A DNA stretch of 64,000 bases from Methanoculleus chikugoensis (lineage in GTDB: Archaea; Halobacteriota; Methanomicrobia; Methanomicrobiales; Methanoculleaceae). Positions 14,573-18,170 of the stretch are shown one piece after another (the stretch's first letter is position 1; each line of letters starts with the position of its first letter). A program made the position numbers and the translations under genes. The stretch lies in NCBI RefSeq assembly GCF_900095385.1, contig NZ_FMID01000041.1:1-64000 (forward strand), in the 5' to 3' direction. The notes beneath the pieces were generated by a model. The model worked only from the letters and a program-made list of their open reading frames with translations. It was not told the DNA's origin and searched no databases.

Positions 14573-14645
14573 CCCTCCATCCAATTTTTCCGGTGAGCCA
14601 TAAGGTTTATTTGTCAATACAGCATTGTTATACTGCACTTTGTAT

Positions 14646-14755
14646 GCTGCGGTGGCCTAGTCGGTTAGGGCGCCAGACTCATAGGGTTTTCGAGAGAACG
14701 GTGCGTCCAAGCCTGGGACATCTGGAAATCGTGGGTTCGGATCCCACCCGCAGCA
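14646..14755 (+). tRNA. tRNA-Met(CAU), with intron
   Basis: The cloverleaf is complete: acceptor GCTGCGG/CCGCAGC with discriminator A14755, D-arm GCC...GGC, anticodon stem CCAGA/TCTGG, T-arm GTGGG-TTCGGAT-CCCAC. The loop reads CTCATA, then an intron, then A, giving anticodon CAT. No CCA is encoded. Elongator Met is most likely because archaeal elongator tRNA-Met genes often carry an intron here; tRNA-Ile2 with a modified CAU cannot be excluded by eye. An AT-rich AAGGTTTATTTG upstream is the likely promoter. Confidence 0.93.
14684..14719 (+). other. 36-nt tRNA intron at canonical position 37/38
   Basis: Removing 14684-14719 restores a 7-nt anticodon loop (CTCATAA) and a perfect 5-bp stem. The intron sits between positions 37 and 38, the usual archaeal site, where the splicing endonuclease recognises a bulge-helix-bulge. 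RtcB in this window is the ligase expected to join the exons. Confidence 0.88.
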
Positions 14756-14985
14756 TTGATTTTTGAACGGTTTGCGGTTCTGAGTTTTGAAAATGTGTTT
14801 TTGTTTGAGGTTGTTCCTCTCTCTGGCGACAGACTGAAGACTGCCCCCAAGAAAAGAAACAAATGGAAATAGAATTTTCCGTCACTAAAATCTATAGCAT
14901 CAAAAAGATGGTTAAAGCAAGCATGATTATTGTCCTGATAGAAGAACCCAACAGAGATGAACCCAACCTCTTCAGAAAAATAAAA

Positions 14986-15405
14986 TTAAAACAGTTTCCC
15001 AAATCCGAAGTCGTTGTTTTTCTTCGAACCTCGTTTTGAGGGGCGACCAAATAATCCGAGTGGATCAGGATCTGGATCTTTTACCTTCGCTTTGTTATAT
15101 CGGGGAGGGGTTCCAAAGATGTTATTGTCCTGATACTGGTGAATTGCTTTCGTTTCGTCACTATCTGCTCTCATCCTAGATCTTGCTGATGACACTCGGG
15201 CACCATTGAACGTTTTTCCACTGCGTGCGTGCTCTTGGATTCGTCGATCAGGATCATTTGTTATCCCATGATAGACGGTTTCCCCAAACATCCCCGTTAA
15301 TTCATAATTATAAGTGTCACGAGGAGCTCTTTTTGTCTTTCTCGGTGCCATCTTTACGCCTAAATAATTCCTAAAGTAGTAATGAGGCATAAAGCTATCC
15401 TTCAT
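14986..15405 (-). CDS. GIY-YIG-like nuclease-fold protein
   Basis: A 139-residue (or about 121 from ATG 15351, MAPRKTKRAP) basic protein. The segment YNYELTGMFGETVYHGITNDPDRRIQEHARSG is read here in two parts: a beta hairpin ending VYHGIT, then NDPDRRIQEH. Together these match the GIY-YIG superfamily pattern of Tyr, GxT and a following Arg-rich helix. The C-terminus is Lys/Gly/Pro-rich and probably disordered. AT-rich composition and isolated position point to acquired DNA. It could be a homing-type or repair nuclease, and the catalytic Glu is not obvious. Confidence 0.65.
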   Translation of the reverse strand: MKDSFMPHYYFRNYLGVKMAPRKTKRAPRDTYNYELTGMFGETVYHGITNDPDRRIQEHARSGKTFNGARVSSARSRMRADSDETKAIHQYQDNNIFGTPPRYNKAKVKDPDPDPLGLFGRPSKRGSKKNNDFGFGKLF

Positions 15406-15665
15406 TAGTGAGAGGAGATAAATGGCACCGCGGATATTTTGTGGAATTTAATGCATCGATGGACTACAAAATAGAACACTTGAACTCCACTCTCTTGGAG
15501 TGTCGTATATTACCACGGGGAACAAAGTTGCTGCAAGAGCGGAGTTTGAAAGGGTCTACGGTATTCGAATGGGTGCCCCCTTCCGGCAGAGGTGTTTAGG
15601 GATAACCACCAAGATGACCGCTCTCAATCGTATTTCGAATACTGAGAATTTCAATGATAATGTTT

Positions 15666-15824
15666 TTACTCTCGTGAAACGCCCTTATACTTCCCACCGC
15701 TCTTTTTTCCGCTTACAATGCGCCCAGTATCACCATCGCGCTTATAATACGTACCAGAGTGCTCGAATTGAGATTTACCTTTGACCGCTCCCTTCCTGTA
15801 CCCCTCACCGGTGTTCTTTGCCAT
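15666..15824 (-). CDS. Small phage-type conserved protein (MAKNTGxGYRxGAV family)
   Basis: A 52-residue basic, glycine-rich protein beginning MAKNTGEGYRKGAVKGKSQF and containing KRDGDTGRI and GGKYKGVSRE. The same layout (MAKNTG-GYR-GAV--RSQ, then KRD-TGRF, then FKGVR-E) is known from many small uncharacterised bacterial and phage proteins. GAGGTGGT lies just before ATG 15824, so the 64-residue version from 15860 is less likely. The function is unknown; the sequence suggests a small nucleic-acid-binding protein, which is inference. It sits in the low-GC island with the GIY-YIG-like gene on the same strand. Confidence 0.75.
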   Translation of the reverse strand: MAKNTGEGYRKGAVKGKSQFEHSGTYYKRDGDTGRIVSGKKSGGKYKGVSRE

Positions 15825-16339
15825 GAATACCACCTCATTGGAGGAATTATTTTTGCGCATGATAAATTTTACTATTTTTTCGATATTGAAAATTGTATGA
15901 GCTTCTTGACTAATAGAACCTCACACATGATATGGTCTGTATGAGCCTCATCCACTATAAATCGCGAGCGATAGCGAACAACGCAATCATCATGCCGCGA
16001 ATCGCGATTTCTGGTAAGGCAGGAGTTCGCGTCCGGGCGGGGCCCGCGATGTAAGAGATTAAACGCACCCCAAAGTTCTCTCTACTGTGCGGCGTGCTCA
16101 ACGGCGCTCGTCAAGATAGCCTACCGGATCACGCAGGCACTCTCCGGCAGTGCGACGCCTACGACTCCAGGAAAGGCGGTCTCTTACCCCCGAAGGTGCA
16201 GACGAATGTCTGTGAGTGGTGTCGGACGGAACCTGCCAGAGCGTGAGCACCTATGGGCTGCGATGGCGTTATGTGCGGAACTGATTACGCCTCTAACGCC
16301 ACTTGAAGCCGCTTTCAGGAAATATTTATCTTTGAAAGG
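15825..16339. other. Intergenic stretch in the island, no confident gene
   Basis: The first 120 bp are AT-rich and act as upstream region of the 52-residue protein gene. From about 15960 to 16320 the composition turns GC-rich with long stop-free frames but no start, ribosome site or recognisable protein. This may be decayed coding DNA; for example a plus frame ending at a TGA near 16245 contains CEWC. An AATATTTATC near 16321 is a candidate TATA box for the lipoprotein gene. Confidence 0.4.
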
Positions 16340-17203
16340 GTGGATTTTTCAATTGTGAACCAATGCTCAAATATCCACGTCTCACTACTGGTAATACTGT
16401 TAGTGGCAGCCACAATTGTTACAACAGGCTGCGTGTCCGATATTCAGGTGGATACTTTTGATCCGAGTAATGTTCTCAACCCCTCGAACTTTGATCCAAT
16501 AAATGATCAAGTGTGTGAATTAGCGAATCGAACTGGGTTTGACGCGGAGATTCTTTTAGAACTGGGCGAGCATTATCCCGAAAGCGAATCTTTTCGGCAG
16601 CTCCTTGATTTTCATATTATTGCACTGTTCGAAGAGAAAAACATTGATGACTGCTATAAAGGAACAGCAGACAGTCTAGCCGGCTACATACAGCAGATAG
16701 GAACAATAAACGACACATTTTTTGAAGATTACGAGACTTTCCGTGAGAAGGGAGTTCAATTTAACCATGTTGTCCGAACTACAAACGAGCACTTCTCCAC
16801 TGCAATTCCAGAAATAGACCTGTCTATTGAAAATCACCGGAGTTTACATGGAGTCAAGACGGTAATGACGTATGCACCTGTCATCGACTCATATAACAAG
16901 TTATATGAGGCCTCATCAAAGTTGCATAGCGAAGTCGATGAGGACTATCAAAACTTCTATACAAATCTATTTCTTTTTGGTGCAGATATTGCATTTGTCC
17001 AACAAAAAGCAGGGTATCACGCCGCTTTCAAATCAACGGGATCGCTTGCAAACACCGTTGGTCTATCTGGGTCACGAGCGGTGCTGGGAGATAAGGGCTA
17101 TGGACTTTTACTAAGTCAGATCCACTGGATGATACGGGGTGAGTTGCATAAAGGGTGGGAAGATTTGCTCGATATGCTCCGACAGGAGAATCTCATTGCA
17201 TGA
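16340..17203 (+). CDS. Predicted secreted lipoprotein, unknown function
   Basis: A 287-residue protein with a hydrophobic signal (VSLLVILLVAATIVTTGC) ending in a lipobox-like TTGC, so it is probably anchored outside the membrane. The mature part is helical, polar and AT-rich in coding; nothing in it matches a family I know. GTG 16340 and GTG 16355 are both possible starts; the TATA at 16321-16330 fits either. It may be cargo of a mobile region, given its unusual composition for this genome. Confidence 0.65.
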   Translation: MDFSIVNQCSNIHVSLLVILLVAATIVTTGCVSDIQVDTFDPSNVLNPSNFDPINDQVCELANRTGFDAEILLELGEHYPESESFRQLLDFHIIALFEEKNIDDCYKGTADSLAGYIQQIGTINDTFFEDYETFREKGVQFNHVVRTTNEHFSTAIPEIDLSIENHRSLHGVKTVMTYAPVIDSYNKLYEASSKLHSEVDEDYQNFYTNLFLFGADIAFVQQKAGYHAAFKSTGSLANTVGLSGSRAVLGDKGYGLLLSQIHWMIRGELHKGWEDLLDMLRQENLIA

Positions 17204-17297
17204 TAGTCTACCTGTCCCGCCGTTTTCTCTGGGCTCATACCACAGCACGATCTCACTCATCCGCCCAATCGAACATAATCAAAGTAGAACAGGAAAC

Positions 17298-17334
17298 CAT
17301 GTATATCATGTATATCATGTATACACAGTATACA
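17298..17334 (+). promoter_or_regulatory. Iterated palindromic operator before VapB-like gene
   Basis: Three 9-bp tandem repeats, CATGTATAT (17298-17306), CATGTATAT (17307-17315) and CATGTATAC (17316-17324), run into a perfect palindrome TGTATAC-ACA-GTATACA (17318-17334). The next gene (17372) starts with a ribbon-helix-helix-like domain, and such proteins bind short tandem palindromes at their own promoters. The AT-rich repeats may double as TATA box. Autoregulation is inferred. Confidence 0.6.
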
Positions 17335-17371
17335 AAATGTGCACGTTGGGTGCTGCGTGGTGGTGAGATAA

Positions 17372-17917
17372 ATGGAAACCAAAGTTGAAGAAATGGTGAA
17401 GAACTTGTTTGACTGGAAAAATGTTCGGATAAGGGAAGACACCTATACTCGTCTCTCTGCTCTTGGATCGATGAAAGATAGCTTTGATGACGTTATTAAC
17501 AGATTACTGGACTTCTATGAATTCCCACCGTCAAAGTCTATCGATGACCTTCGGAAGTACGCGGCGCTGCCGGAAGACGCGGAGCATGCAGAAGCCGCTT
17601 TCAAACTGCTCGAGGCCATTGCCAGCCTGGGTGATGACATTTCGTTTACATTGGTGATCGACCGACATGACACCTCAGATCTGCCCCTTGATGAAAAAAG
17701 GAAAAACATGGCAATTTTCCACAGAAACAAGACTCGGTTTGCGATTGTAAAAACGGCGAGATTGGGGCAGGCCTATGTCTACGTGCCTACTAGATACCCA
17801 GATGCGGTGTCTCCTTATCCAGAATGGAAATATCTCGGTAACGTATACGACAAAGACTCATTGGCGAGGGTAATAAAAAATCTCCAGAATTATTATGATA
17901 CAATGATCATTGAGTAA
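17372..17917 (+). CDS. VapB-like (RHH-type) N-terminal domain fused to unknown C-terminal domain
   Basis: A 181-residue protein. Residues about 17-50 (NVRIREDTYTRLSALG, then SFDDVINRLLDFYE) match the archaeal VapB/DUF217-type antitoxin module, a ribbon-helix-helix DNA-binding fold. Residues about 55-181 form a separate domain with strands ISFTLVIDRHDTSDL and RFAIVKTARLGQAYVYVP, which I do not recognise. No PIN-domain toxin follows; the next 300 bp hold only a possible gene remnant. It could be an orphan regulator, or an antitoxin with an unknown effector domain. An elaborate operator lies upstream. Confidence 0.65.
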   Translation: METKVEEMVKNLFDWKNVRIREDTYTRLSALGSMKDSFDDVINRLLDFYEFPPSKSIDDLRKYAALPEDAEHAEAAFKLLEAIASLGDDISFTLVIDRHDTSDLPLDEKRKNMAIFHRNKTRFAIVKTARLGQAYVYVPTRYPDAVSPYPEWKYLGNVYDKDSLARVIKNLQNYYDTMIIE

Positions 17918-17934
17918 ATCGAAGGGGTCCCACC

Positions 17935-18170
17935 GGAACAGAGCTCGACAAGCACGTCGATACCGCTGCCCTATTCCAATCCATCGCAGGCATACGATCC
18001 GAAAAGGGCGATCCCCTCGACGTGATACCGATCTCTGGGTTTGTCTTTCAGCCACGGTTCGCTGTTGTTCCCACTCCGGAAACACTTTGTTTCCAAGCTG
18101 GAAATATCACGGACGGGAGAGAATCCTCGCCGGGAAGAGCCGCTTCATTCTCTTGGCAGCCGCAGCCGTT
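17935..18170 (+). pseudogene. Possible gene remnant, unidentified
   Basis: One plus frame (for example GTELDKHVDTAALFQSIAGI, then EKGDPLDVIPISGFVFQPRF) reads like genuine protein for about 60 residues. It has no start codon or ribosome site and degrades into low-complexity sequence before the next promoter. I cannot name the family. It fits a fragment left by rearrangement at the edge of the island. Confidence 0.3.

Follow-up and report, generated by a model that had tools for sequence, protein, structure and literature searches.

We infer that the gene at 17372-17917 of the window (the whole 64,000-nucleotide stretch of DNA that was analyzed) encodes a solitary, autorepressing ribbon-helix-helix (RHH) transcription factor with an accessory, possibly DNA-contacting, C-terminal domain (CTD), with a probability of roughly 0.6. 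This reading is supported by RHH homology, a non-random and unique operator, a two-domain architecture under purifying selection, and a remote similarity of the CTD to DUF5655. A preliminary description made from the sequence had offered either a one-gene toxin-antitoxin-like system or a novel regulator, and the latter is the better of the two, given a solitary gene and a DUF5655-like CTD. The gene and its parts are:

17372-17917, + strand: gene of the 181-aa RHH and DUF5655-like protein (open reading frame, Pfam, homologs, AF2, selection).
17360-17367 (approximate), + strand: Shine-Dalgarno sequence GGTGGTGA (sequence).
17417-17521, + strand: ribbon-helix-helix domain, residues 16-50 (Pfam PF02697 and PF24434; AF2).
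17579-17902, + strand: CTD, residues 70-177, highly diverged DUF5655-like (hhalign and AF2).

The 181-aa gene is considered real because homologs exist and are conserved; its ATG also immediately follows an in-frame TAA and is preceded by a good Shine-Dalgarno sequence. The RHH N-terminus matches PF02697, VAPB_antitox (8.3e-7, 30.1 bits vs. a curated cut-off of 27.9), and PF24434, DUF7557 (8e-6, likewise above the curated cut-off), which supports the VapB-like domain of the preliminary description. AF2 predicts the RHH elements as a strand at 15-21 and helices at 22-31 and 38-46, with low local confidence. A linker helix (57-63) follows, and the additional C-terminal domain described earlier is indeed present, with its extent revised to a folded part of ~65-181 after that helix. 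PADLOC and NCBIfam gave the 181-aa protein no defence or named-family assignment.

Upstream of the gene are three further features:

17298-17334, no strand: putative 37-bp iterated operator (half-site positions, shuffles, genome-wide uniqueness).
17291-17324, + strand: likely core promoter with a BRE/TATA-like sequence, AGGAAACCATGTATAT... or CATGTATAC, inside the operator (sequence and Methanofollis TATA boxes).
17341-17353, + strand: small, weak hairpin in the leader, GCAC-GTTGG-GTGC, immediately before the Shine-Dalgarno sequence (counterpart in Methanofollis leaders).

The operator consists of three direct half-sites at 9-bp steps (TGTATAT at 17300-17306 and 17309-17315, TGTATAC at 17318-17324) and a fourth, inverted half-site (GTATACA, 17328-17334). 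The last two make up the palindrome TGTATAC-ACA-GTATACA at 17318-17334, with perfect 7-bp arms and a 3-nt spacer. Dinucleotide shuffling of the 168-bp intergenic region never gave a tandem run as long as the observed one, with 17 nt identical at lag 9 (0/5000 shuffles). The 7+7 palindrome by itself is unremarkable, as 6% of shuffles reach one. The earlier observation of 9-bp repeats that merge into a perfect palindrome before the RHH gene therefore holds. When the 2.65-Mb genome was searched by pattern, a single exact copy of the double half-site TGTATAYNNTGTATAY was found, at the array, along with three further sites with one mismatch; matches to a control pattern were 0. A non-random motif that is confined to one promoter, that of the RHH gene, is a local element, and this argues for autoregulation rather than a global regulon.

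The gap between array and gene is 37 bp. Methanofollis leaders have TATA boxes at a matching distance from the gene, and the array probably overlaps the archaeal TATA/BRE region, judging from the sequence. An array over the putative BRE/TATA is consistent with repression by occlusion, and repeated half-sites over the gene's own probable promoter are a mark of autorepressing RHH regulators. The TGTATAC array is absent from the Methanofollis gene leaders. Thus, the operator is not conserved together with the protein. What the Methanofollis leaders (L060-L067, L026, L027) do have in common is a small hairpin with the 3′ arm GGTGC directly before the Shine-Dalgarno sequence, with fold z-scores of -2.3, -3.2, and -1.4 for one member from each of three subgroups. 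The window hairpin is weaker (z -0.8), and 0.9% of leader shuffles contain the element. The hairpin may serve as an additional operator at the DNA level or act in translation. Searches of the leaders against Rfam yielded no credible match.

Among 150 related genomes searched, full-length relatives at ~30% identity were present in 11 species of Methanofollis, another genus of the order Methanomicrobiales, and in no other species of the window's genus. The CTD alone, searched against 232 genomes of the order, returned the window copy, the 11 Methanofollis copies, and three marginal matches over short stretches (E 0.008 to 0.03). No whole-protein homolog was found in phages or viral contigs, and the sole plasmid match, from Halorussus, covers the RHH range only. 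Two other RHH proteins were considered as relatives. A 216-aa open frame in Desulfobacterales (L029:300-947) has a similar RHH but a different C-terminus (..LTHTRILDGRFGD..) and was left out. A 321-aa open frame of the same order (L044, from G065:C1:2219907-2220074) has an RHH and a long C-terminal domain, but was unconvincing as the same CTD (hhalign probability 1.7).

When the window protein is aligned with its relatives, invariant residues occur in both halves. In pairwise comparisons among the Methanofollis copies, NG86 rates indicate that both halves are under purifying selection, with a CTD dN/dS of ~0.04-0.14; the constraint on the CTD is about equal to, or above, that on the RHH part. 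This argues against the idea that the RHH part binds the array while the CTD is an inert dimerization or stability domain and the repeats have expanded recently from a single site by slippage. The two exact 9-bp copies do suggest recent duplication, and the homologs lack the array, but slippage leaves the inverted fourth half-site unexplained, and we regard the idea as improbable. The RHH strand varies as well, with KNVRIRE vs. RTVRVRE and RALTLRE. With Methanofollis promoters lacking the array, a change of binding site would have accompanied that of the RHH strand; the two changes are consistent with co-evolution, though they are not evidence for it.

The CTD has no direct family match of weight in Pfam, NCBIfam, PADLOC, or PHROGs. 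Even with E allowed up to 5, none of 11 members matched the Pfam DUF5655 model (PF18899), so its gathering score was not reached. Because the residue pattern of the CTD suggested DUF5655, sequences of that family were collected for a profile comparison. The hhalign score of the CTD against DUF5655 was 27.4 (P = 2.9e-4), collinear over 88 columns, and the highest control scores were 21.0 (150 column-shuffled profiles) and 19.9 (36 unrelated protein families). With bacterial DUF5655 members added, the score was 25.7 (P 6.8e-4). The alignments are shallow, and the hhalign probability of the link is just 27-40%. Tested independently of the profiles, the secondary-structure elements of the two AF2 models map one to one, in the order H-E-E-E-E-E-H. 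The CTD elements are H70-84, E90-95, E113-118, E121-129, E133-139, E152-157, and H161-177 (lengths 15, 6, 6, 9, 7, 6, 17), and those of the DUF5655 domain (pLDDT 90) are H2-14, E21-24, E28-32, E36-43, E48-53, E81-85, and H88-103 (13, 4, 5, 8, 6, 5, 16), with a short extra strand (67-69) within a loop. The CTD residues K111 and F123, both invariant, line up with a Lys and a Phe that are conserved in DUF5655. The RDV..GHxGTGD loop motif, present in the DUF5655 alignments compared, is absent from the CTD alignment. The match is remote but consistent, and the CTD is quite probably a DUF5655 domain. Foldseek with the full-protein AF2 model (pLDDT 73) found no significant fold match.

Most of the invariant CTD residues have a hydrophobic or structural character (L86, G87, F92, F116, F123, P139, W152), the invariant polar candidates are few (D100, K111, R122), and the alignment contains no nuclease-like set of conserved acidic residues. 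These properties bear on the one-gene toxin-antitoxin-like unit, in which the RHH part would restrain a toxin CTD, whether in cis or within the dimer, and the array would provide autoregulation. PF02697 is presumably the archaea-specific antitoxin family COG1753/DUF217. Antitoxins of COG1753 normally pair with PIN toxins, or with RelE-like toxins in several methanogens, and an RHH-HEPN fusion has been described (PMC2701414). The gene also lies in a mobile-looking island. However, the CTD lacks the residues of a nuclease and resembles an accessory domain, and the gene is kept as a single gene in 11 Methanofollis species, with no toxin partner recognized. We therefore consider such a unit very improbable.

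The autoregulated transcription factor that we favor is compatible with what is found for DUF5655 itself. With the DUF5655 model (not the CTD itself), Foldseek returned YjbR (2fki, TM 0.63, prob 0.98, E 0.066), T4 MotA-C (1kaf, TM 0.53), and frataxin-like proteins, all with E-values of 0.05 or worse, which are not significant. MmcQ/YjbR and MotA-C share a "double-wing" fold, for which DNA binding has been argued (PMC7641849). Given this resemblance, an extra DNA-contacting or oligomerizing module is the simplest guess for the CTD. A PDB sequence search found no solved DUF5655 relative, and none of the papers in the literature collection searched mentions the domain. In annotated plasmids, DUF5655 is fused to HsdR_N-type nucleases and DUF262/DUF1524 proteins, as a C-terminal appendage of restriction-type nucleases.

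The gene lies in a variable site next to a tRNA gene:

14645-14756, + strand: tRNA-Met(CAT) with a 36-nt intron, left edge of the island (tRNA search in intron mode; conserved in relatives).
14757-18169, no strand: AT-rich island with the gene (G+C, comparison with relatives).

The tRNA gene is missed unless the intron mode is used. The G+C of the island is mostly 40-52%, vs. ~64%. Relatives share sequence up to 14756 and again from ~18169, but not 14757-18169; between the same flanks, one relative (G006) has a nearly empty site of 275 bp and another (G003) has ~17 kb of other sequence. The tRNA-linked variable site suggests that the gene was probably acquired horizontally. In Methanofollis, the gene is on the 3′ side of, and in the same orientation as, a cobalamin-biosynthesis cluster (neighbor identities read from sequence), a link not seen in the window. 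Positions 17916-18051 are repeated at ~80% identity elsewhere in the genome (C67) and in four related genomes. None of the 16 ORFs scanned between 14986 and 19403 matched PIN, RelE, or other toxin families by Pfam, in agreement with the lack of a PIN partner noted earlier. A 64-aa ORF of the island (15669-15860, - strand) matches the PADLOC phage-defence candidate PDC-S38 (2e-17). A 139-aa ORF (14986-15405, - strand) matches the GIY-YIG nucleases below threshold (0.0017), and a search of phages found nothing related to it.

These neighbors allow an antitoxin-derived orphan or defence-linked regulator, which would control other island genes or act with the GIY-YIG-like and PDC-S38 genes against mobile elements, the DUF5655-like domain being a nucleic-acid recognition module. 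The PDC-S38 match, the sub-threshold GIY-YIG-like gene, and the fusions of DUF5655 to HsdR_N-type and DUF262/DUF1524 nucleases fit such a role. It is nevertheless unlikely, since the operator motif is absent from the neighboring island genes and found at the RHH promoter only, and the Methanofollis homologs adjoin cobalamin biosynthesis genes, not defence genes. Rather unlikely, too, is a family of archaeal one-gene regulators in which an antitoxin-type RHH and a double-wing-like DUF5655 domain, an accessory of restriction enzymes, would form two different modules for reading DNA. Such a protein might detect modified or foreign DNA and in response lift its own repression.

For the solitary, autoregulated factor, we propose that VapB/RelB-type RHH dimers bind the four TGTATA(T/C) half-sites, which lie at a spacing of 9-10 bp, and by analogy with RelB two dimers would fill all four. 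Dimers docked over the TATA/BRE would block TBP/TFB or RNA polymerase and switch off their own promoter. The CTD would stand in place of the toxin-binding tail of an antitoxin and may add a second DNA contact or self-association, leading to cooperative filling of the array. Alternatively, it may sense a signal that lifts repression. The covalently attached CTD could stand in for RelE as co-repressor, through cooperativity or sensory input. If so, an uncharacterized antitoxin-like archaeal protein would gain a testable role, the array would give a self-contained operator for assays of archaeal autoregulation, DUF5655 would have a first handle, and the case would illustrate how the RHH modules of antitoxins may find new use apart from a toxin.

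Among known systems, the archaeal VapB antitoxins (COG1753/PF02697) likewise have an N-terminal RHH above cut-off and probable autoregulation at an upstream array. Unlike VapB, the protein has a folded ~115-residue domain instead of a short toxin-binding tail, and no PIN or RelE toxin gene adjoins it; of the two parts of a type II VapBC system, the RHH antitoxin domain was found and the adjacent PIN-domain toxin gene was not. The CTD has the element order of DUF5655 (PF18899), similar element lengths, and the aligned conserved Lys and Phe, but differs in a longer (17-residue) beta1-beta2 loop and in having an RHH partner instead of a nuclease. The MmcQ/YjbR and T4 MotA C-terminal "double-wing" domains rank near the top of the fold matches to the DUF5655 model, with E-values that are not significant. 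In E. coli, RelB dimers cooperatively fill four hexads, [A/T]TGT[A/C]A, over their own promoter (PMC2812701). This E. coli relO array differs from the array described here in its toxin co-repressor and in its contiguous hexads, vs. a spacing of 9-10 bp, but both place four half-sites in a palindromic promoter array, and the ATGTATA core resembles [A/T]TGT[A/C]A (PMC2812701).
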